Assembly: GCF_037039395.1 (NCBI RefSeq)
Contig: NZ_CP146244.1
Coordinates: 1,153,501-1,217,500 of the forward strand
Direction: 5' to 3'
Length of the DNA: 64,000 bases
DNA from: Agrobacterium vitis
GTDB lineage: Bacteria > Pseudomonadota > Alphaproteobacteria > Rhizobiales > Rhizobiaceae
Position numbers and translations under genes: made by a program
Shown: one piece after another, positions 15,569-61,098 of the stretch
How the letters are laid out: every line of letters begins with the position of its first letter
How positions within the stretch are numbered: the first letter of the stretch is position 1
Notes under the pieces: model-generated
The model's database searches: none
What the model saw: the letters and a program-made list of their open reading frames with translations, nothing else
What the model was told of the DNA's origin: nothing

Positions 15569-16956
15569 GCATCTCGTCGCTATTGGTGGCCAACAGGGGC
15601 GAGATTGCCGTTCGGATCATCCAGGCGGCCAAGGCGCTCGGCATTCGCACCGTGCAGGTTCATTCCGCCGCCGATCGCGACATGCTGGCGGTCAAACTGG
15701 CCGATCAGGCGGTGGAGATCGGCCCGCCATCCGCCGCCAAGTCCTACCTGAATATCGAGGCCGTGCTGAAAGCGGCGCTGGAAACCGGTGTCGATGCCGT
15801 GCATCCGGGCTATGGCTTCCTGTCCGAAAGTGCTGCTTTCGCCAAGGCTGTCACCGATGCCGGGCTGATTTTCATTGGTCCAAGCCATGAAGCGATCAGT
15901 CTGTTGGGCGACAAGGTTGAGGCCCGGAAGGTGGCGATGCAGGCAGGTGTGCCGACGGTGCCGGGATCGAATGGCCGGGTGGATGATCTGGACGCAGGGC
16001 GGGCGATTGTCGAGACAATCGGGTTTCCTGTGATGATCAAGGCGGCTGCCGGTGGCGGTGGCCGGGGCATTCGCATTGCTGAGACCATGGAGGATTTCGA
16101 GCGGCATTTCCCGCAGGCGTCCTCCGAAGCGCTGGCTGCGTTTGGCGATGGCGGTCTTTACATCGAGAAGGTCATTACCCGCGCCCGCCATGTCGAAGTG
16201 CAGATCCTCGGCGATGGGGAAAATGCCATTCACTGCTTCGAGCGGGAATGCTCGCTGCAACGCCGCCGCCAGAAGGTCTGGGAAGAAGGCCCATCGGTGC
16301 GTCTGCCTGCGGATGTGCGAAAAGCCCTGTGCGACAGCGCCGTGGCGCTGGCCCGCTCGGTCCACTATCGCGGCGCGGGTACGGTTGAATATCTCTATGA
16401 CGAGCAGAGCGGCGAATTTTATTTCATTGAGGTCAACACCCGCATCCAGGTCGAGCATCCGGTGACGGAAATGATTACCGGCATCGATCTGGTGCAGGAA
16501 ATGATCCGCATTGCCGGTGGCGCGCCTTTGTCGCTGCGCCAGGAAGATGTGGTGCTTTCTGGCCATGCTATCGAATGCCGGATCAATGCCGAGGACCCGG
16601 CGCGTGGCTTTCTGCCTGGTCCGGGCACGGTCTCAACCCTGCACATTCCCGAGGGCGAGGGTATCCGCTTCGATACCATGCTCTATGAAGGCTATCAGGT
16701 GCCGCCGTTCTACGATTCCCTGCTCGGCAAGCTGATCGTCTGGGCGGAAAGCCGTGAGGCCTGCCTGGAAAAGCTTGGCTCGACGTTGGAGCACTTCGAG
16801 ATTGGCGGCCTTGCCACCACCATCCCGCTGCACAAAAAGCTGGTGGCTGATCCCTCCGTGCGAAGCGCCGATGTCCATACCCGGTTTTTGGAGCCGTGGC
16901 TGGAAACGGCCTTTCCGGCTCCCTCCAAGGCACCCGCTTCAAAGGAGACTGTCTGA
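15565..16956 (+). CDS. Biotin carboxylase, stand-alone
   Basis: A 463-aa biotin carboxylase: [19 protein letters not shown] at the N-terminus, ATP-grasp GGGGRGIRIA near 160, ERECSLQRRRQKVWEE near 225, and [15 protein letters not shown] near 290. It has no carrier domain, which is the separate 80-aa protein before it. The operon order carrier-carboxylase-PxpB-PxpC splits into four genes what cluster 1 holds in two, so the set is a functional unit and not the housekeeping acetyl-CoA carboxylase. The stop overlaps the next ATG (TGATG). Confidence 0.9.
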   Translation: MSISSLLVANRGEIAVRIIQAAKALGIRTVQVHSAADRDMLAVKLADQAVEIGPPSAAKSYLNIEAVLKAALETGVDAVHPGYGFLSESAAFAKAVTDAGLIFIGPSHEAISLLGDKVEARKVAMQAGVPTVPGSNGRVDDLDAGRAIVETIGFPVMIKAAAGGGGRGIRIAETMEDFERHFPQASSEALAAFGDGGLYIEKVITRARHVEVQILGDGENAIHCFERECSLQRRRQKVWEEGPSVRLPADVRKALCDSAVALARSVHYRGAGTVEYLYDEQSGEFYFIEVNTRIQVEHPVTEMITGIDLVQEMIRIAGGAPLSLRQEDVVLSGHAIECRINAEDPARGFLPGPGTVSTLHIPEGEGIRFDTMLYEGYQVPPFYDSLLGKLIVWAESREACLEKLGSTLEHFEIGGLATTIPLHKKLVADPSVRSADVHTRFLEPWLETAFPAPSKAPASKETV

Positions 16957-34249: not shown

Positions 34250-34466
34250 TCCCCGCTTCTTCCCGGCCAGGGCGGGTATGGGATTGCAAAACTGCGGCTT
34301 TCTGCCTATAGAAAGGCCATTAACCCCGGACCCGGTGAAATTCCGGGTGGCTATTCTGGCCGCCGATCCGCCAGACAACGCACGACATTTCTGAAACGTG
34401 ATGATCCGTTTATTCGGTCAGCTCTGAGCGTTTGTGAAAAATCTTCCCCGTTGCGAAACAATCTCC

Positions 34467-35948
34467 ATGAAAAAAATTGAACGATACCAGCGAGACTGGT
34501 TCTCGAATATCCGTGGCGATGTCCTGTCGGGCATTGTCGTGGCCCTTGCGCTTATTCCCGAAGCCATCGGCTTCTCGGTGATTGCCGGGGTCGATCCGAA
34601 GATCGGGCTGTTTGCCTCAGTTATCATCGCCTGTGTATCCGCCTTCTGTGGTGGGCGCCCCGGCATGATTTCCGCTGCCACTGCCGCAACCGCTGTGTTG
34701 ATCGGTGGGCTGGTCAAGGACCATGGCATTCAATATCTGTTTGCCGCAACCGTGCTGATGGGCCTGTTGCAAATTCTGGCTGGCTTCCTGAAGCTCGGGC
34801 GTTTGATGCGCTTCGTGTCGCGTTCGGTGATGACGGGCTTCGTCAATGCCCTGGCAATTCTGATCTTCATGGCGCAATTGCCGGAATTGCTTGGCCGCCC
34901 ACCATCGACCTTCGTGATGATCGGTGTGGCGCTTGCCATCATCTATCTCTTCCCGCGTCTCACCAAGGCGGTGCCATCGCCGCTGGTGGCAATCGCCGTG
35001 CTGACGGCTGCGACCTGGTGGTTCGGATGGGATGTCCGCAGCGTCAGCGATCTCGGCGAATTGCCGTCCAGCCTGCCATTGTTCGGCTGGCCGCAGGTGC
35101 CGCTGACCTTCGAGACGTTGCAGATCATTTTCCCGTATTCCATCGCGCTCGCTGCCGTTGGCTTACTGGAATCGCTGCTGACGGCGCAGATCGTCGATGA
35201 CATGACGGATACGCAAAGCAACAAGAGCCAGGAATGCATCGGCCAGGGAGCAAGCAATATCGCTTCCGGCTTGTTTGGAGGCATGGGCGGCTGCGCGATG
35301 ATTGGCCAATCGGTGATCAATATCTCGTCGGGTGGGCGAGGGCGTCTTTCGACCTTCGTGGCCGGTAGCTTCCTGCTTGTGCTGCTGCTGGTGCTGGATG
35401 ATATCCTGCGGGTGGTTCCCATGGCCGCCCTGGTGGCGATCATGATCATGGTGTCGATCGGCACGTTTTCCTGGCGGTCGATCATCGACCTGCGCACCAA
35501 CCCTCCATCCTCGTCGCTGGTCATGCTGGCAACCGTGGTGACAGTGGTTGCCACCCACGATCTGTCGAAAGGCGTGCTGGTCGGCGTGCTGCTGTCGGGC
35601 GTGTTCTTTGCCGGTAAAGTGGCGCGCATGGTGCATGTCAAAGCCGAAGACCATGCCGATGGTTCAAGACTGTACCGGGTGGACGGGCAGATTTTCTTTG
35701 CGTCCTCTGAAGCCTTTATCGCCGCCTTCGACTTTGATGACGAAGTGAAATCCATCACCATCGACGTAACCCAGGCGCATTTCTGGGACATTACCGCGGT
35801 TGGCGCCCTCGACAAAGTGGTGCTGAAGTTCCGCGCCAAGGGGGCTGTGGTGGATGTGAAGGGACTGAATGTTGCCAGCGCCCATATGATGGACCGCTTT
35901 GCCTTGCATCGCGATCCGCAAGCCGTTCTCAGCGCGGGTGGGCATTGA
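34467..35948 (+). CDS. SulP-family anion transporter with STAS domain
   Basis: A 493-aa membrane protein. The N-terminal part has 10 or more hydrophobic segments with SulP landmarks [20 protein letters not shown] near 28-47 and [24 protein letters not shown] near 275-298. A C-terminal STAS domain (about 385-490) contains [11 protein letters not shown] and [20 protein letters not shown]. It imports an oxyanion such as sulfate, or bicarbonate. The ATG at 34467 is the natural family start; an upstream in-frame GTG has no better ribosome site. It is followed by a structured small RNA on the same strand. Confidence 0.88.
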
Positions 35949-36039
35949 TACGACTCGTGATTGAAGAGGGAATTTCGGATGAGGGACGGATGAGCAATTC
36001 GCTACGCGCATAGCGCATGGCTGACGTGCGAAAAACTGC

Positions 36040-36068
36040 CTCGAAAATGTGCGAAAATCAGGTATAAC
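36040..36068 (+). promoter_or_regulatory. Promoter of the alpha-r14-type small RNA
   Basis: CTCGAA at 36040 and TATAAC at 36063 are 17 bases apart and would start transcription near 36075, just before the first hairpin. The -35 resembles the CTTGAA of heat-shock sigma RpoH promoters in rhizobia as well as the housekeeping type, so the sigma factor is uncertain. Confidence 0.5.
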
Positions 36069-36071
36069 TCT

Positions 36072-36238
36072 CTTCATCGAAGCAATGCATCCTCCTCCCG
36101 CAGAGCTTCGATATACCGGGCCAGCTTCTCCTCCTCCCAGAGCGGCCCGTCGGAATGACGACACTCCTCCTCCCAGTCGTCATTCGGTTCTTTCGAAAAG
36201 CCTGCCGCACCTCCTCCCGCGGCAGGCTTTTCGTTTTT
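36072..36238 (+). ncRNA. Alpha-r14 family small RNA with four anti-Shine-Dalgarno hairpins
   Basis: Four consecutive perfect hairpins each place the same motif CCTCCTCCC in the loop. Stem 1 spans 36076-36112 (motif 36091), stem 2 36117-36149 (36130), stem 3 36153-36185 (36166), stem 4 36194-36233 (36210). Stem 4 has 15 bp and is followed by TTTTT, an intrinsic terminator. Sinorhizobium Smr14C2/NfeR1 and relatives (alpha-r14 family) expose this motif to pair with ribosome-binding sites of many transporter mRNAs, and related cuckoo RNAs in Rhodobacter carry it too. The four stems differ from each other in sequence while the loop is fixed, which is strong evidence for function. Confidence 0.9.
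36194..36238 (+). terminator. Intrinsic terminator of the small RNA
   Basis: A 15-bp perfect stem at 36194-36208 and 36219-36233 around a 10-base loop carrying CCTCCTCCC, followed by five T. It doubles as the fourth functional hairpin of the small RNA. Confidence 0.9.
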
Positions 36239-36267
36239 GGAGGGTTTTCTCTCAATAAGCCGCTCTT

Positions 36268-37749
36268 TTACGAAGCCGCCAATTGCTGTACTGCCTGTTC
36301 GGGCAAAGCAGACTGCATAGCTGTGCCTGGCTGGGCAAAGGCCGCGCCGACGCCGATGAGGATTGGGTTGCTGACACCAAGTGTGGCGACCGCATCGGCC
36401 AGTTCCCCGACCGTTCCACGCCAGCTCGTCTGTTGCGCACGGCTGATTGAGGTCATCGCCACCGCTTGCGTGTTGGACGCCATACCAGCTGCGATGAGAT
36501 TTTCGGCAATCCGGCCCGCCATCCGGCCGCCCATATAGAAGATCGTCGTGACGGATGGATCGGCCATGTCGCGCCAGTTGAGGCTTTCCGGCAGGTCGCC
36601 GTGTCTGGAATGGCCCGTCACCAATCGCAGTGATTGAGCGTGATCGCGGTGGGTGAGCGAAATGCCAAGCGCCGCCGCCATGGCGCTGGCCGAGGTAATT
36701 CCGGGTACGACATCCACGGCAATACCCTCATTCGCCAACCTGGCGATTTCCTCGCCTGCTCGCCCGAAAATCATCGGATCGCCGGATTTCAGCCGCACCA
36801 CCCGTTTTCCAGCCTTGGCAAACCGCACCATCATCTCATTGATATCGTCCTGCTTGCAGCTTTCCCGCCCGCCACGCTTGCCAACCAGCATGCGCTTGGC
36901 CTCACGGCGGGCAAGTTCGAGAACGTCAGGGGAGACCAGATCGTCAAACAGGATGACATCGGCAGCTTGCAGCGCCCGCACGGCTTTCAGGGTCAATAAT
37001 TCCGCATCGCCTGGTCCCGCGCCGACCAGTGTGACCCGCCCATGTGCCGGGGCGTTTGCGAGCCTGGCCGCCTCGTTCAGCAGCAAATGCTCCTCATTGT
37101 CCTGCGGCGGTGCATTGCCGGCAAAGGCGCGGTCCACGAACCGTTCCCAGAATGTGCGGCGCGGTGAGCCGGGTGCCAGCTTTTCATTGATCCGGCCACG
37201 GATCGCTTGTGCCAGTTCCGCCCATGGTTTGAGCGCTGGCGGTAGCAGCGTTTCAATCCGCCGCCGGATAGCCTGCCCGAGGATTGGTGCTGCGCCATCG
37301 GTGGAAATCGCCACCACGACCGGCGAGCGGTTGACGATGGAGCCGAACTGGAATTGGCAATAGGCGGGCTTGTCGATGACATTGACTGGAACGCCCGCCG
37401 CTTTTGCGGCGCAATAGAATGCCTTAGCCTCGTCCTCCGTCTCGCAATCGGCAAGCGCCAAAGCGGCGTTTTCAAAAATGCCGATATGCCAGCAATGGGG
37501 ATGAAGGACCATGCGGTCTTGCTCATCAAGGAGGGTGCGGAAGGTGTCGGACAATTCGTCCTTGGCGCAGAACACCTCGACATCAGCGCCACAGGCCGCT
37601 AGCAATTCGGCCTTCCAGGCTGCTCCTTCCGAACCACCGGCGACGATGACCCGCTTGCCTTCCAGCGCCCAGAAAACCGGCAGTTTGGAAAGCGGTGCGA
37701 CCCGTTCCGGGCGCCGAGACTTATTCTGCGGCAAGGATTTGAACAGCAT
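36268..37749 (-). CDS. cysG: Siroheme synthase (multifunctional)
   Basis: A 493-aa protein that makes siroheme, the cofactor of nitrite reductase NirB. The N-terminal half (about 1-210) is the precorrin-2 dehydrogenase/ferrochelatase domain, with a variant dinucleotide motif VAGGSEGAAWKAELL. The C-terminal half (about 220-475) is uroporphyrinogen-III methyltransferase, with VTLVGAGPGDAELLTLKA, VRLKSGDPMIFGRAGEE and GVTSASA-type segments. The ATG at 37749 has GGAGGA upstream and lies 29 bases inside the end of nasA, so the two are translationally coupled. It is the last gene of the nitrate operon. Confidence 0.92.
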   Translation of the reverse strand: MLFKSLPQNKSRRPERVAPLSKLPVFWALEGKRVIVAGGSEGAAWKAELLAACGADVEVFCAKDELSDTFRTLLDEQDRMVLHPHCWHIGIFENAALALADCETEDEAKAFYCAAKAAGVPVNVIDKPAYCQFQFGSIVNRSPVVVAISTDGAAPILGQAIRRRIETLLPPALKPWAELAQAIRGRINEKLAPGSPRRTFWERFVDRAFAGNAPPQDNEEHLLLNEAARLANAPAHGRVTLVGAGPGDAELLTLKAVRALQAADVILFDDLVSPDVLELARREAKRMLVGKRGGRESCKQDDINEMMVRFAKAGKRVVRLKSGDPMIFGRAGEEIARLANEGIAVDVVPGITSASAMAAALGISLTHRDHAQSLRLVTGHSRHGDLPESLNWRDMADPSVTTIFYMGGRMAGRIAENLIAAGMASNTQAVAMTSISRAQQTSWRGTVGELADAVATLGVSNPILIGVGAAFAQPGTAMQSALPEQAVQQLAAS

Positions 37750-40393
37750 CGATAATCCTCCTGATTTCGGCGCGGCAGGAGCCGCAATTGGTTCCAGCGG
37801 ACAAGGTCTGGCCGACGGCTTCGACCGAGCAGCAGCCGCCCCTGACAGCATTGGTGATCTGGTTGATCCCAACCGAGAAACACGAGCAGACAATCGCTCC
37901 CGGATCGACCTGGCCCGCGCCTGGCCGTCCGGCAATTAGCGCCAGCCGGGCGTGGCGATCGCTGAAGTCGTCGGCAAGCCGGGCGCTGGCCCAATTGCGT
38001 GACACCGCAACCGGTTGGCTCGCCATGAACAGCGCGGCGCAAAGCCTGCCTGCGTTAAAAAACGCCAAACGGACATCGCCACTGGCATGGTCGCTATAGC
38101 CGATCATCTCTGCGGTGACGGGTACGGCAAGCGTTGCTCTCGCCCAGCTTTCCCAATCGCAGTCACGCTCAAACGCCAGCTCCAGCCGCCAGCCATGCTC
38201 GGCCTTGGCCAAAGCCCAATAGGATGCATCCAATGCCTGCGGCTTATGAGCTGACACGGCAAAACCATAGGCCTTAGCCGCATAGGGCTTTGCCGCAATG
38301 GCCACATGTTTCAGCGCTGGCTGACCCGAAACCGGGTCTACCAGGGAAGGTACGAGGCTATCGATGCGGGCCAGTGAGGCGGTTTCGCCAGTCCAGTGCA
38401 TCGGCACGAAAATGGCACCACGGCTTTGGCGGTTGGTCAAAAGCGCGCGAACGATCACCCGGCTGCCGGTCTCGCTGGAAATCTCCACCAGGGCCGCATC
38501 GGCAATACCGAGATTGGCGGCGTCCAGCGGGTGGATTTCCGCGAAGGGTTCGGCCAGATGCGCCGATAGCCTCGCGCTTTTTGCCGTCCGTGTCATCGTA
38601 TGCCAATGATCGCGCACCCGCCCGGTATTGAGGGTGAGGGGAAAATCCTGGCTTGCCCTATCTGGTATTACGGGTTCGCAGGCAATGAAACGGGCCTTGC
38701 CATCGGCATGATAAAAGCCGCCATTGGCGAAAAACCGGCTTTCCGCCGCAGGCTCGCCTTGTCTCTGGGGCCATTGGAAGGGGGCAAGCGCCTGATAGTC
38801 TGCATCCGTGATCGCGCCGTAAGCACCGATATCGAAATCGCGGGTGCCATTGTTTTCAAAACCCGATAGGGCGGCATGTTCGGCAAAGATATCGGCGGGC
38901 GACTGATAGCGAAAGGCTTTGCCAAAGCCCATGCGGCGGCCAATCTCAGCCATCTGCCACCAGTCTGCTCTGGCCTCGCCGGGGGCTGGTTTGAATGGTC
39001 GCTGGCGGGAAATCCGTCGTTCCGAATTGGTGACGGTGCCGGATTTTTCGCCCCAGCCAGCCGCTGGCAGCAGCACATGCGCCAGCTTTGCCGTATCGGT
39101 ATCGGCCTGCATGTCGGAGACGACAACGAAGGGGCAGGCGGCAATCGCCGCTTTGACGGCATCGGCATTGGGCATGGAGACGACTGGATTGGTGGACATG
39201 ATCCACAGCGCCTTGATCCTGCCATCGGCCACCGCCTGGAACATGTCCACGGCCTTCAAGCCGGGCCTGTCGGCCATGGTGGGCGAGGCCCAGAACCGCT
39301 GCACACGATCCCGATCCGTGGGATTGCCCAGCTCCATATGGGCGGCCAGCACGTTGGCGAGCCCACCGACCTCGCGTCCTCCCATGGCATTCGGCTGGCC
39401 GGTCAGCGAAAACGGTCCCATACCGGGTCTGCCGATCCGTCCGGTCGCCAGATGGCAATTGATGATCGCATTGACTTTGTCGGTGCCAAGCGACGACTGG
39501 TTGACGCCCTGGCTATAGCAGGTCACGGTTTTTTCCGTCGCGGCAAACAGTTGGAAAAACTGCCGCAACTGCATGGCAGGCAGGCCGGTCGCTTCCATCA
39601 GATCACCAAGCGATTGACCGGCAGCGGCGGCAAATGCTTCGGCAAAACCGTTTGTATGGGCGGCAATGTAGGATTGGTCGATGCTACCGTTTTCGACCAG
39701 ATGCGCCAGCAAGCCGTTGAACAGCGCCACATCGCCATCCGGGCGGATGGATAGATGCAGGTCGGCAATGTCTGAGGTCGCGGTGCGGCGCGGATCGATC
39801 ACCACCACTTTCAAGCCGGGGCGCTTGGCCTTTTCCGCAGCAATCCGCTGATAGAGCACCGGATGGCACCAGCCCATATTGGAGCCGACCAGCACGATGA
39901 GATCGGCCAGTTCCAGGTCACGGTAGGTGCCGGGAACGGTATCGGAGCCGAAGGCCCGCTTATGGCCAGCGACCGAAGAGGCCATGCAGAGACGCGAATT
40001 GGTGTCGATATTGGCCGAGCCGATAAAACCCTTCATCAGCTTGTTGGCGACGTAATAATCCTCGGTCAGCAATTGGCCGGAGAGATAGAAGGCGACCGAA
40101 TCCGGCCCATGCTCGGCAATGCTGCGGGAAAACCTCTCGGCGACGAGATCGAGCGCCACATCCCAGGTCTGGCGCTCGCCGTAGACGGTCGGAGTGAGTG
40201 CCCTTCCATCCAGATCCAGCGTTTCACCCAGCGCCGAGCCCTTGGAACAGAGCCGGCCGAAATTGGCCGGATGATCCGGGTCGCCCATGATGCTGACGGC
40301 ACCATTGTCCTCAACCTTGGTGTCCTCGACCTTGGCAATCACGCCGCAGCCAACGCCGCAATAGGGACAGGTGGTTTTCGTCTCGCCGGACAT
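37721..40393 (-). CDS. nasA: Assimilatory nitrate reductase catalytic subunit
   Basis: An 890-aa molybdopterin enzyme reducing nitrate to nitrite in the cytoplasm. The N-terminal [4Fe-4S] ligands are in TCPYCGVGCGV (Cys 9, 12, 16) with the fourth in LCSKGSALG. The bis-MGD domains carry NSRLCMASSVAGHKRAFGSD and ending segments such as NTGRVRDHWHTMTRTAKS. The last 60 residues form an added BFD-like [2Fe-2S] domain (VCSCFSVGI ... GTNCGSCRAEI), which lets it take electrons from a ferredoxin- or NADH-linked partner. The ATG at 40393 has GGAG 8 bases upstream; the GTG at 40402 is an alternative. Confidence 0.95.
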   Translation of the reverse strand: MSGETKTTCPYCGVGCGVIAKVEDTKVEDNGAVSIMGDPDHPANFGRLCSKGSALGETLDLDGRALTPTVYGERQTWDVALDLVAERFSRSIAEHGPDSVAFYLSGQLLTEDYYVANKLMKGFIGSANIDTNSRLCMASSVAGHKRAFGSDTVPGTYRDLELADLIVLVGSNMGWCHPVLYQRIAAEKAKRPGLKVVVIDPRRTATSDIADLHLSIRPDGDVALFNGLLAHLVENGSIDQSYIAAHTNGFAEAFAAAAGQSLGDLMEATGLPAMQLRQFFQLFAATEKTVTCYSQGVNQSSLGTDKVNAIINCHLATGRIGRPGMGPFSLTGQPNAMGGREVGGLANVLAAHMELGNPTDRDRVQRFWASPTMADRPGLKAVDMFQAVADGRIKALWIMSTNPVVSMPNADAVKAAIAACPFVVVSDMQADTDTAKLAHVLLPAAGWGEKSGTVTNSERRISRQRPFKPAPGEARADWWQMAEIGRRMGFGKAFRYQSPADIFAEHAALSGFENNGTRDFDIGAYGAITDADYQALAPFQWPQRQGEPAAESRFFANGGFYHADGKARFIACEPVIPDRASQDFPLTLNTGRVRDHWHTMTRTAKSARLSAHLAEPFAEIHPLDAANLGIADAALVEISSETGSRVIVRALLTNRQSRGAIFVPMHWTGETASLARIDSLVPSLVDPVSGQPALKHVAIAAKPYAAKAYGFAVSAHKPQALDASYWALAKAEHGWRLELAFERDCDWESWARATLAVPVTAEMIGYSDHASGDVRLAFFNAGRLCAALFMASQPVAVSRNWASARLADDFSDRHARLALIAGRPGAGQVDPGAIVCSCFSVGINQITNAVRGGCCSVEAVGQTLSAGTNCGSCRAEIRRIIDAVQILAAE

Positions 40394-40398
40394 GATGC

Positions 40399-40734
40399 TC
40401 ACTCCGCTGCCTGCAACAGGCTTTCCATGGCAATGGAGAGCACGCCTTCGACATTGCGCACGGCAATTGTTCGTACTGCCCCTTCATCGGCACCCAGCGC
40501 TTTGCCGCTTTCCAGCGAGATCACCCAATTGTGCAGCGGGCAAGTCACCGCCTTGCCATGGACGATGCCCTGGCTGAGCGGCCCACCCTTGTGCGGGCAA
40601 TGGTCCTCGATGGCGAAGACCTCGTTTTCGGCGGTGCGAAATACCGCGATCTTGCCTTGAGGGGTTTTTACGCAGCGCGCGCCGCGCAGCGGAATGTCGT
40701 CGATATGGCCGATAGAGGTCCAGTTCTGATCCAT
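40399..40734 (-). CDS. nirD: Nitrite reductase small subunit
   Basis: A 111-aa Rieske-like protein. The Cys-His pairs are kept in DHCPHKGGPLSQG and VTCPLHNWVISLESG, so it could hold a [2Fe-2S] cluster, unlike the E. coli NirD where ligands are lost. It works with NirB in NADH-dependent reduction of nitrite to ammonium. The ATG at 40734 follows the nirB stop by 4 bases, and its own stop sits just before the nasA start. Confidence 0.93.
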   Translation of the reverse strand: MDQNWTSIGHIDDIPLRGARCVKTPQGKIAVFRTAENEVFAIEDHCPHKGGPLSQGIVHGKAVTCPLHNWVISLESGKALGADEGAVRTIAVRNVEGVLSIAMESLLQAAE

Positions 40735-40738
40735 GATC

Positions 40739-43186
40739 TCACTCCGCTGCCTGGGTGTAGCCGATGGTCGCCATCGGCTTGAACTCATGCTTGTCCTTGC
40801 CGGAAACGCGCTCCGACCAGGGGTCGACCTGGGCGAATGTCTGGCTGAAAACGAAGCGGTCGAAATAGGCCTTGCGCTTGGTTTCATCCTCCATGATCTG
40901 GCGGCGCACCTCGTCATGGCCAATGCGTTTTGCCCATTTGTAGATCCGCTCCAGATAGCGGCCCTGTTCGCGGTACATCTGGGTCAGCGCAACGATATGC
41001 TCCAGCGCCTCTTCCTCGGTTTTGACGAGGCCCAGAACATCGGTACCCTTGATGTCGAGACCAGCAGCGCCTGCGAAATGAATCTCGTAGCCTGAATCGA
41101 CGCAGATGACGCCAATATCCTTGCAGGTCGCTTCGGCGCAGTTGCGCGGACAGCCGGAGACGGCCAGTTTCAACTTGGCGGGCGTCCAGGAGCCCCACAT
41201 GAATTTTTCAAGCTTGATGCCAAACCCGGTGGAATCCTGCGTGCCGAACCGGCACCAGTCGGAGCCGACGCAGGTCTTTACGGTGCGCAGACCCTTGGCA
41301 TAGGCCTGGCCGGAGACGAAGCCTGCCTTGCCGAGATCGGCCCAGACGGCGGGCAGGTCTTCCTTTTCGATGCCCAGCAGGTCGATGCGCTGGCCGCCGG
41401 TGACCTTGACCATGGGGATTTCGAACTTGTCGACCACATCGGCAATGGCCCTGAGTTCGGCGGCATTGGTGACGCCGCCCCACATGCGCGGCACGACCGA
41501 ATAGGTGCCGTCTTTCTGGATGTTGGCATGGACGCGCTCATTGATGAAGCGCGACTGATAGTCGTCGGCATATTCGTCCGGCCAATCGCAGACGAGGTAA
41601 TAGTTGAGCGCCGGGCGGCATTTGGCGCAGCCGCAGGAGCTTTTCCATTCCAGTTCCTGCATGACGGCGGGGATGGTCTTCAGTCCCTTGGCCTTGATCA
41701 GCCTGCGCACATCGTCATGGCCAAGGTCGGAGCAGGCGCAGATCGGCGTGACGGCCTTTGGGTTATAAGCATCACCCAGCGTCAGCGCCATGACCTGCTC
41801 GACAAGGCCGGTGCAGTTGCCGCAGGAGGCGGAGGCTTTCGTATGGGCGCGCACCTCATCCAGTGAGGTCAGGCCTTTGCCGGTAATGGTCGAGACGATC
41901 TTACCCTTGCAGACGCCGTTGCAGCCGCAGATTTCCGCATCATCCGGCAAGGCTGCAACGGCCGCCATAGGGTCCAGCGGTGTACCCCCCTGGTAGGACT
42001 GGCCGAAAATAAGCGTGTCGCGCATCTGCGAAATGTCGGTGCCGCGCTTCATCAGATCGAAGAACCACGAGCCATCACCGGTTTCGCCGTAAAGCACGGC
42101 GCCGACAATGCGGTTATCCTTCAGCACCAGCCGCTTGTAGATGCCGGATGAGGCATCGCGCAGCACGATTTCTTCGCGGTCAGGTGCTTCTGCAAAATCC
42201 CCGGCGGAAAACAGGTTGATGCCGGTGACCTTGAGTTTGGTATTGACGACGGAGCCGTGATATTCGGCATGACCACCAGTCAGCCGGTCGGCCAGCACCC
42301 GGGCGCTTTCATAGAGCGGCGCAACCAGGCCGTAGCACATGCCGCGATGCTCGGCGCATTCGCCAAGCGCAAAGATCGACGCGTCCGACGTCTGCATGCC
42401 GTCATCAACAACGATGCCGCGATTGACGGCAAGACCGGCATCCTTGGCAAGCTGTGAAGCCGGACGAATACCAACCGCCATCACCACCACGTCGCCTGAA
42501 ATCACCCGGCCATCTTCCAGCTCGATGCCTTCGACTTTGTCCGTACCGAGGATCGCCTTGGTATTGGCTTTGGTGATGATCTCGATGCCCCGTTCGGAAA
42601 GCGCCTTTTCCAGAAGATAGGCGGCAGCGGGGTCGAGCTGGCGCTCCATGATGGTCGGCATCAAGTGAATGACGGTGACCTCCATGCCCTGACGCTTCAA
42701 GCCATAGGCGGCTTCAAGCCCCAGCAGCCCCGCGCCGATGATGATGGCCCGGCCTTGGCCCTTGCTGATCTCCAGCATTTTCTCGACATCATCGAGATCG
42801 CGATAGGCGAGCACGCCGGGCAATTGATGACCGGGGACCGGAATGATGAAGGGCAGGGAGCCGGTGGCAATCACCAGCTTGTCATAGGCGGCGGTGATGC
42901 CGTTTTCCGAGGTTACGGTTTTTGCCTGCCGGTCAATACCGGAGACTTTCGCGCCGCGATGCAGGGTCACGCCATGGGTTTCATACCATTGATCGTTATG
43001 GATGATGATATCTTCATAGGCTTTTTCGCCCGACAGCACCGGCGAGAGCATGATGCGGTCGTAATTGACGCGCGGCTCGGCATTGAAAACGGTGACGTCA
43101 TAAAGGCCGGGAGCTTTTTCGAAAAGCTCTTCCAGCATCCGGCCCGGCGCCATGCCATTGCCGATGATAACCAGTTTTTCCGCCAT
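40739..43186 (-). CDS. nirB: NAD(P)H-dependent nitrite reductase large subunit
   Basis: An 815-aa siroheme enzyme. It has an N-terminal FAD/NAD(P)H oxidoreductase part (LVIIGNGMAPGRMLEEL; second dinucleotide motif AIIIGAGLLGLEAAYGL near 145), two BFD-like [2Fe-2S] motifs (EICGCNGVCKGKIVS and TPICACSDLGHDDVRRLI), then the ferredoxin-like and siroheme/[4Fe-4S] domains. The cluster Cys residues lie in TCVGSDWCRFG and VSGCPRNCAEATCKD. It reduces nitrite to ammonium with six electrons. GGAG precedes the ATG. It is flanked by nrtC and nirD in one operon. Confidence 0.96.
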   Translation of the reverse strand: MAEKLVIIGNGMAPGRMLEELFEKAPGLYDVTVFNAEPRVNYDRIMLSPVLSGEKAYEDIIIHNDQWYETHGVTLHRGAKVSGIDRQAKTVTSENGITAAYDKLVIATGSLPFIIPVPGHQLPGVLAYRDLDDVEKMLEISKGQGRAIIIGAGLLGLEAAYGLKRQGMEVTVIHLMPTIMERQLDPAAAYLLEKALSERGIEIITKANTKAILGTDKVEGIELEDGRVISGDVVVMAVGIRPASQLAKDAGLAVNRGIVVDDGMQTSDASIFALGECAEHRGMCYGLVAPLYESARVLADRLTGGHAEYHGSVVNTKLKVTGINLFSAGDFAEAPDREEIVLRDASSGIYKRLVLKDNRIVGAVLYGETGDGSWFFDLMKRGTDISQMRDTLIFGQSYQGGTPLDPMAAVAALPDDAEICGCNGVCKGKIVSTITGKGLTSLDEVRAHTKASASCGNCTGLVEQVMALTLGDAYNPKAVTPICACSDLGHDDVRRLIKAKGLKTIPAVMQELEWKSSCGCAKCRPALNYYLVCDWPDEYADDYQSRFINERVHANIQKDGTYSVVPRMWGGVTNAAELRAIADVVDKFEIPMVKVTGGQRIDLLGIEKEDLPAVWADLGKAGFVSGQAYAKGLRTVKTCVGSDWCRFGTQDSTGFGIKLEKFMWGSWTPAKLKLAVSGCPRNCAEATCKDIGVICVDSGYEIHFAGAAGLDIKGTDVLGLVKTEEEALEHIVALTQMYREQGRYLERIYKWAKRIGHDEVRRQIMEDETKRKAYFDRFVFSQTFAQVDPWSERVSGKDKHEFKPMATIGYTQAAE

Positions 43187-43191
43187 AGTGT

Positions 43192-43989
43192 TTACTCCGC
43201 GGCTTCGACGAAGCGGTGACGTTCGTAGAGGAACTTCAACACGGCTTCGCGGGATTTGAGATAGGTCCGGTCTCCGGCCAATGCGATGCGGTCACGAACG
43301 CGCGGGATCGGCACATCAAGCACTTCACCGATCTTTGCGGCGGGGCCGTTGGTCATCATGACGATCCGGTCGGAGAGCAGCACGGCCTCATCGACATCAT
43401 GGGTAATCATGATCATCGTATTGCCGAGGCGCGCATGGATTTCCATCACGGCGTCCTGCAAATGGGCGCGGGTCAGCGCGTCCAGTGCCCCGAACGGTTC
43501 GTCCAGCAACAGGATTTTCGGCTCCATGGCCAGCGCCCGGGCAATGCCGACACGCTGTTTCATGCCGCCGGAAATCTCCGCGGGCCGCTTGTCCTTTGCA
43601 TGCCCCATCTGCACAAGATCGAGATTGCGCATCACCCAGTCATGCTTTTCCGCTTTGGTCTTGCGGCCAGCAAACACCTTGGAGACGGCGAGATTGACGT
43701 TTTCATACACCGTCAGCCATGGCAGCAGCGAATGGTTCTGAAAGACCACGGCCCGTTCCGGCCCCGGCGCGTTGACCTCGGTGTTTTCCAGCAGGATCGC
43801 GCCTGCGGTTACGCGGGTCAGACCGGCGATCAGATTCAGCAGCGTGGACTTGCCACAGCCGGAATGGCCGATGATCGAGACGAACTCGCCCTTGCCGATG
43901 GACAGGGAGACATCTTTCAATACCTCGGTCTTTGTGCCTGATCGTTCGAAGCTTTTGTCGATATGGTCGATTTTGAGATAGGCATTCAT
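43192..43989 (-). CDS. nrtC: Nitrate ABC transporter ATP-binding protein
   Basis: A 265-aa ATPase of the nitrate/sulfonate/taurine class: Walker A GHSGCGKSTLLNL near 40, Q-loop FQNHSLLPWLTVYENV, signature ISGGMKQRVGIARAL, Walker B ILLLDEPFGALDALT. It is the length of NasD/NrtD and has no extra binding-protein domain as in cyanobacterial NrtC, so the name follows rhizobial use. AGGAGAGG lies upstream of the ATG. It ends 5 bases before nirB. Confidence 0.92.
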   Translation of the reverse strand: MNAYLKIDHIDKSFERSGTKTEVLKDVSLSIGKGEFVSIIGHSGCGKSTLLNLIAGLTRVTAGAILLENTEVNAPGPERAVVFQNHSLLPWLTVYENVNLAVSKVFAGRKTKAEKHDWVMRNLDLVQMGHAKDKRPAEISGGMKQRVGIARALAMEPKILLLDEPFGALDALTRAHLQDAVMEIHARLGNTMIMITHDVDEAVLLSDRIVMMTNGPAAKIGEVLDVPIPRVRDRIALAGDRTYLKSREAVLKFLYERHRFVEAAE

Positions 43990-60848: not shown

Positions 60849-60900
60849 CGTACATTAACCATTGACGCCAGAGCGAACCCAGCTATTCTAAAGGCATTCA

Positions 60901-61001
60901 CCAGGGGTGTCCCGCAAGGGGCTGAGATTCCGCTACGCATAACAGCAGCGCGGTGACCCGTTGAACCTGATCCAGTTCATACTGGCGTAGGGACGGTGCA
61001 A
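60901..61001 (+). promoter_or_regulatory. TPP riboswitch (THI element)
   Basis: The conserved parts are all present: ggggtgtcc at the 5' side, ggctgagat, gacccgttgaacctgatcc and agttcatactggcgtaggga. It lies about 115 bases before thiC, which it represses when thiamine pyrophosphate is plentiful, probably at translation because no T-tract hairpin follows. Confidence 0.95.
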
Positions 61002-61098
61002 GCGCTGCAAAACCATGGCCCGTATTGGGTTGTCCCGTTATGGGCTGGTAAAGCGTCTTTCCATCATTCCGGCTGTCATGACTGGGTCTCCAACCTGA

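Follow-up and report, generated by a model that had tools for sequence, protein, structure and literature searches.

We examined a stretch of 64,000 nucleotides (nt) from a 6.04 Mb genome of a grapevine-associated Agrobacterium vitis (contig NZ_CP146244.1, here C4, positions 1,153,501 to 1,217,500; this whole stretch is referred to as the window) for a small RNA gene located on its plus strand at 36072..36240. Rfam matching, predicted fold, homology and conserved base pairing all place this RNA among the SmelA099-type (alpha-r14, or cuckoo) anti-Shine-Dalgarno small RNAs, and it is a well-supported but ordinary addition to a four-hairpin group that dates from 2010–2011. The find is real but ordinary, because a 2011 study had already described the four-hairpin form in related bacteria living on roots. 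By analogy with a studied relative in Sinorhizobium meliloti, the RNA very probably acts in trans to block translation starts.

The four hairpins and their conserved pairing

Four exact copies of the motif CCTCCTCCC lie on the plus strand, at 36091, 36130, 36166 and 36210. Counted on both strands, the motif occurs 5 times in the window, as compared to a mean of 0.52 and a maximum of 3 in 100 dinucleotide shuffles, none of which (0/100) reached 5. The region 36050-36270 was predicted to fold at -86.2 kcal/mol vs. a shuffled mean of -55.4 (z of -7.8; 0 of 200 shuffles were as low), and in the predicted fold each motif remained unpaired within the loop of its own hairpin. The plus-strand hairpins occupy 36078..36110 (hairpin 1, motif 36091-36099), 36117..36149 (hairpin 2, motif 36130-36138), 36153..36185 (hairpin 3, motif 36166-36174) and 36194..36233 (hairpin 4, motif 36210-36218), and their stems are mutually unrelated (CGAAGC/GCUUCG, CGGGCC/GGCCCG, GAAUGACGAC/GUCGUCAUUC and CGAAAAGCCUGCCGC/GCGGCAGGCUUUUCG, respectively). 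Hairpin 4 is terminator-like, its stem of 15 pairs leading into a run of five T (TTTTT at 36234-36238); it was not reported by a consensus terminator scan with a loop limit of 8. The transcript would begin near 36075 and end within this T tract. A prior reading of the letters alone (the sequence-only reading) had described four unrelated stems that present identical loops, in full agreement with the motif positions, the fold and the stem sequences, and its coordinates, 36072-36238, fit the four-hairpin stretch.

Conservation of pairing was assessed in an alignment drawn from 39 loci (30 of the 63 places in the genus where the four-loop spacing was found, the window, locus L002, and seven named loci), from which five duplicates, L042 (not all four loops exact), L049 and L050 were dropped to leave 31 four-hairpin sequences, L055 included. 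Of the 1207 cells in the alignment, 97.7% were paired; changes on both sides were seen in 14 of the 39 pairs; and the covariation score was 0.249, compared to 0.149 in shuffles. The shuffles, which leave the relatedness of the sequences in place, never reached the observed pairing, both-side changes or covariation (0/500), and reached the observed number of pair types in 5/500. When the pairing partner was slid as a control, pairing fell to 35–47%. The covariation signal came mostly from hairpins 2 and 3: five of the six consensus pairs of hairpin 2 had both-side changes in some relatives, this being the least regular hairpin (pairing in 91% and 82% of the cells of its two helices), and six of the ten pairs in hairpin 3 had them, with 98.7% of cells paired. 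In hairpin 1, five of six outer stem pairs were invariant in the 31 sequences, and the 14 consensus pairs of hairpin 4 were paired in 100% of cells; both hairpins are almost invariant, and covariation therefore tells little about them.

Family membership and the published four-hairpin form

The Rfam family ar14 (RF02344) matched positions 36111-36234 with 104.2 bits (gathering score 58.8, E 3.6e-18), which bears out the assignment of the sequence-only reading to the alpha-r14 / anti-Shine-Dalgarno family. The match spans hairpins 2–4 only and hairpin 1 falls outside it; because of this omission, an annotation made from Rfam alone would set the 5' end wrong, about 35–40 nt too late.

Models with differing numbers of hairpins were published by Reinkensmeier et al. 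(2011, PMC3927594), who describe a three-hairpin RFMSmelA075 and a four-hairpin RFMSmelA099, with CCUCCUCCC in every loop; one family for both, with a varying number of modules, is mentioned there, and the A. tumefaciens RNA L5, a member of RFMSmelA099, is given as detected by sequencing and Northern blot. The coordinates of SmelA099 itself are tabulated in Schluter et al. (2010, PMC2873474). In S. meliloti 1021, SmelA099 (pSymA 1328175-1328334) has its four loops at 16, 53, 89 and 135 of 160 nt, and the window RNA aligned to it with 133 identities and 22 mismatches over 155 aligned bases, with 19 gap positions. Both RNAs have four hairpins with CCUCCUCCC, and hairpins 1 and 4 are nearly identical between them; SmelA099 differs in its location on pSymA and in the sequence of stems 2 and 3. 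The window RNA shares with RFMSmelA099 four consecutive CCUCCUCCC hairpins, homology to SmelA099, and a structure that is kept while stems 2 and 3 vary. The sequence-only reading had suggested that four loops might be an expanded form. That four loops are a new form is rejected by the four-hairpin model published in 2011, the four loops of SmelA099, and the occurrence of the spacing across the genus (33 of 63 genomes). Among the titles of 8 out of 128 papers matching Agrobacterium vitis and these RNAs, none dealt with this locus (PMC4615179 and PMC3346310 are outside this scope), and the word "vitis" is absent from the main text of PMC3927594.

Other members of the family are less close. The label "NfeR1-like" in the sequence-only reading holds as to family, since the family model fits hairpins 2–4 and the loop motif is identical, but it is loose, as NfeR1 is described as an RNA of 123 nt with three hairpins (PMC10746234). 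An orthology of the window copy to NfeR1 was considered and rejected on this ground, and because the genome has a better-scoring three-hairpin copy of its own. SmelA075 (pSymA 1220693-1220808) likewise has the same motif in every hairpin loop but only three hairpins, and gave 76 identities to the window RNA in a global alignment with many gaps. The CcsR1-4 RNAs of Rhodobacter sphaeroides, stress RNAs with anti-Shine-Dalgarno loops (PMC10253847), resemble the window RNA in these loops, but RS0680a is described with two motif hairpins (PMC3927594), and CcsR1-4 are described as sharing a transcript with a DUF1127 gene and as being released from a single precursor (PMC10253847), whereas the window locus is without DUF1127.

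The A. vitis genome has five ar14 copies. Four exact loops were found in two of them (the copy at C4:888k and the window copy); the copy on C5 (L005 1465-1640) keeps all four hairpin positions, several bases of its second loop being altered; and the pair on C2 are three-hairpin RNAs, in one of which the last loop is a variant. Of the three-hairpin copies, C2:1667634 scored best in the ar14 model, above the window copy, and the 5' end UCGAAGC is common to the window RNA and the three-hairpin copy L001. Three of the five copies (C5:169179-169289, C4:888530-888640 and C2:3540932-3541036) have DUF1127 genes at about 250–270 nt; a PF06568 search of this genome found none near the window copy or near C2:1667634. 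This placing of DUF1127 next to ar14 copies resembles the arrangement of the CIN1 locus.

Within the genus, 33 of 63 genomes had the four-loop spacing, at 63 places, by a pattern that required exact loops 1, 2 and 4, so that copies with one of these changed were missed (the C5 copy of this genome was found via its Rfam match), and at least two of the 63 places (L049 and L050) hold RNAs of three hairpins that have a stray motif as the fourth, past the terminator. Within the family, the spacing was present in 65 of 199 sampled genomes and 39 of 109 genera, a count that includes many tandem arrays of three-loop units fitting the spacing. A four-hairpin anti-Shine-Dalgarno RNA is accordingly common in the genus, and much of the family has one too. 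Among plasmid records, 488 had a match, of which 454 covered 80% or more of the 169-nt query at a single place. Four of seven further plasmid loci had four exact loops (Shinella L092, Pararhizobium L093, R. johnstonii L094 and S. meliloti L096); the loci from A. tumefaciens (L097), R. tropici (L098) and R. leguminosarum (L099) had four hairpin positions with one loop one base off; and the plasmid locus L095, which is SmelA075, had three loops. Four-hairpin copies with one inexact loop (L005, L026, L097, L098 and L099) perhaps represent decaying or specialised loops.

A wider-spaced pattern of five or more loops was found in 55 of 394 sampled genomes. In some family genomes outside the genus, three-loop anti-Shine-Dalgarno units were seen in tandem (L067-L086, including L077 and L081), reaching 21 loops within 980 bases in L077 (G238, region C1:878340-879172); such arrays are possibly one long precursor.

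The orthologous place and the upstream region

The sequence-only reading had placed the RNA between a SulP transporter gene and the nitrate operon, as the gene family matches confirm. The upstream SulP-family gene (34434..35948, plus strand) matched TIGR00815 with 300.9 bits, under the cut-off of 380, and its protein was 98, 98, 96 and 89% identical to those of four A. vitis genomes, in line with a place in the Agrobacterium (Allorhizobium) vitis group. On the minus strand, the converging nitrate/nitrite run ends with cysG (siroheme synthase, 36268..37749; NF007922, 546 bits, cut-off 400), preceded by a nitrate reductase-like gene, nirD, nirB and the ATPase gene of a nitrate ABC transporter (37721..43989). 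Several molybdopterin enzyme models matched the nitrate reductase-like gene, all under their cut-offs; the names SulP and nitrate reductase are therefore to be taken at family level only, because the matches fall under the curated cut-offs. Among nine named Rhizobiaceae loci with SulP, the order sulP, four exact loops, nitrate reductase was seen in seven (L006-L010, L012 and L023), and cysG was matched in four of these seven. This conserved position beside the nitrate operon means that a nitrogen role deserves a simple test.

Ahead of the -10 region, some 45 nt form a block that was nearly identical in nine aligned sequences (the window, the seven loci, and L026) and was kept even in sequences whose surroundings differ. 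The -10-like TATAAC is at 36063..36068 on the plus strand; its TATA core was retained in orthologs, and a good -35 was not seen. Within the conserved block, at about -77 to -64 from the likely start, is the plus-strand T-N11-A box TTCGCTACGCGCAT (35998..36011), which could be a weak counterpart of the LsrB box, TGCA-N6-GCAT, described at -72 to -57 in the NfeR1 promoter (PMC10746234). The strict LsrB motif was found in 10 of 34 upstream regions examined, including those of the C4:888k and C5 copies.

Two further RNA elements in the window scored above the Rfam gathering score: a sul1 RNA (34325-34380) ahead of the SulP gene and, elsewhere, a thiamine pyrophosphate (TPP) riboswitch (60893-61011).

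Mode of action and alternative explanations

We propose that the window RNA would be independently transcribed as a molecule of about 165 nt whose four loops each expose an accessible CCUCCUCCC, a copy of the 16S anti-Shine-Dalgarno sequence; the loops would base-pair in trans with G-rich ribosome-binding sites of several mRNAs, so that translation is blocked, and would serve as redundant or cumulative binding sites. Binding to ribosome sites, as the sequence-only reading had also supposed, is the likely mode of action by analogy to S. meliloti NfeR1, which is described as silencing ntrB via its anti-Shine-Dalgarno loops, a triple loop mutant failing to do so (PMC10746234). The A. vitis RNA may likewise be expected to be transcribed, to respond to stress or nitrogen by way of an LsrB-like activator, and to silence targets such as ntrB. 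Two candidate sites were noted. An ntrB-like open reading frame (ORF) after dusB, whose best family is NR(II) with 190.7 bits (under the cut-off of 240), has GAGGAGG 4 nt before its ATG, and the start of cysG is preceded by CAGGAGGAT, identical in all four orthologs read. These sites are weak evidence for targeting because they are also simply good ribosome-binding sites; duplex energies of single loops with the candidate sites take no account of accessibility and were not treated as proof.

The sequence-only reading had also called AGGAGG-type sites abundant in the window, for example at 16941, 22312 and 30833. The sequences there are AAGGAGA, AAGGAGT and AAGGAGT, respectively. AGGAGG occurs 24 times on both strands, four of these being the antisense of the window RNA itself, and 4 of 24 lie 3–12 nt before the start of an ORF of at least 60 amino acids. 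This is not an enrichment, because other control G-rich hexamers scored as high or higher before starts (AGGCGG 16/79 and GCGGAG 9/23; CCTCCT and TCCTCC gave 1/24 and 4/30). Abundance of AGGAGG was therefore rejected as support: none of the cited places reads AGGAGG, the sites are few, and they are not enriched before starts.

The proposal draws on sequence, predicted fold, conserved pairing, orthologs and the upstream block, and several observations weigh against it. A consensus promoter scan reported nothing at the window RNA; upstream of this copy the strict LsrB box is absent, with the loose T-N11-A only; and the NtrC motif TGC-N11-GCA of the NfeR1 promoter is absent from 35901-36075; in pathogens of plants or mammals, A. 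tumefaciens among them, an NtrC signature is described as not evident (PMC10746234). Locus L011 had no loop motif at its SulP locus, and in L026, where the first loop of the RNA differs by one base and the other three are exact, the 2.7 kb past the RNA was without a cysG or nitrate reductase match. AGGAGG sites being few and not enriched over other G-rich hexamers, targets within the window would be few. SmelA075 is described as occurring in shorter forms (PMC2873474), so that forms other than the complete RNA with its four hairpins may be active too.

This last point touches upon a possible, though somewhat unlikely, alternative: that the transcript is mainly a precursor from which RNases cut single hairpins or pairs as the active units, four loops only raising the dose. 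The release of Rhodobacter CcsR1-4 from their precursor is attributed to RNase E (PMC10253847), and the tandem arrays of three-loop units in the family, with up to 21 loops in about 1 kb (L077), would suit such processing; but the four-loop spacing and the order of the hairpins are conserved from the genus itself to Sinorhizobium, and the single terminator-like hairpin stands at the end only. We consider it improbable that the locus acts mainly in cis, with hairpin 4 as a bidirectional terminator shared with the nitrate operon and an overlap of transcripts coupling the two. The stop of cysG at 36268 is 34 nt from hairpin 4, and the interval holds a single weak predicted hairpin of 6 pairs that no T tract follows; A and T runs flank the stem of hairpin 4 on either side; and in L009, L010 and L023, which gave no cysG match, the nitrate reductase match ends about 45–50 nt past the loop-4 motif. 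The minus-strand T tract is short, however, and four-hairpin RNAs also occur where no nitrate genes are annotated nearby (R. johnstonii pRL11 and A. tumefaciens pAt15955) and, within this same genome, next to DUF1127 genes.

It is highly improbable that the loops sequester a protein, or the ribosome as such, instead of mRNA sites. The DUF1127 protein CcaF1 is described as taking part with RNase E in CcsR maturation (PMC10253847), DUF1127 genes adjoin three of the five ar14 copies, and SmelA075 is reported as recovered with Hfq (PMC5928592). NfeR1, in contrast, is described as Hfq-independent and as acting by base pairing via its anti-Shine-Dalgarno seeds (PMC10746234), and the nearest DUF1127 gene to the window copy on its contig is about 94 kb off. 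Trans-acting blockage of translation starts could be extended to a two-way circuit with the nitrate operon, an idea to which we give only a very slight chance: the RNA would silence cysG via CAGGAGGAT, and the operon mRNA would in turn expose up to four GGGAGGAGG decoys for the RNA and its paralogs. What speaks for it is geometry only, the genes being convergent, with an operon mRNA that would end at, or cross, the shared hairpin. If such a circuit were real, high transcription of the nitrate operon would relieve a whole set of silenced genes.
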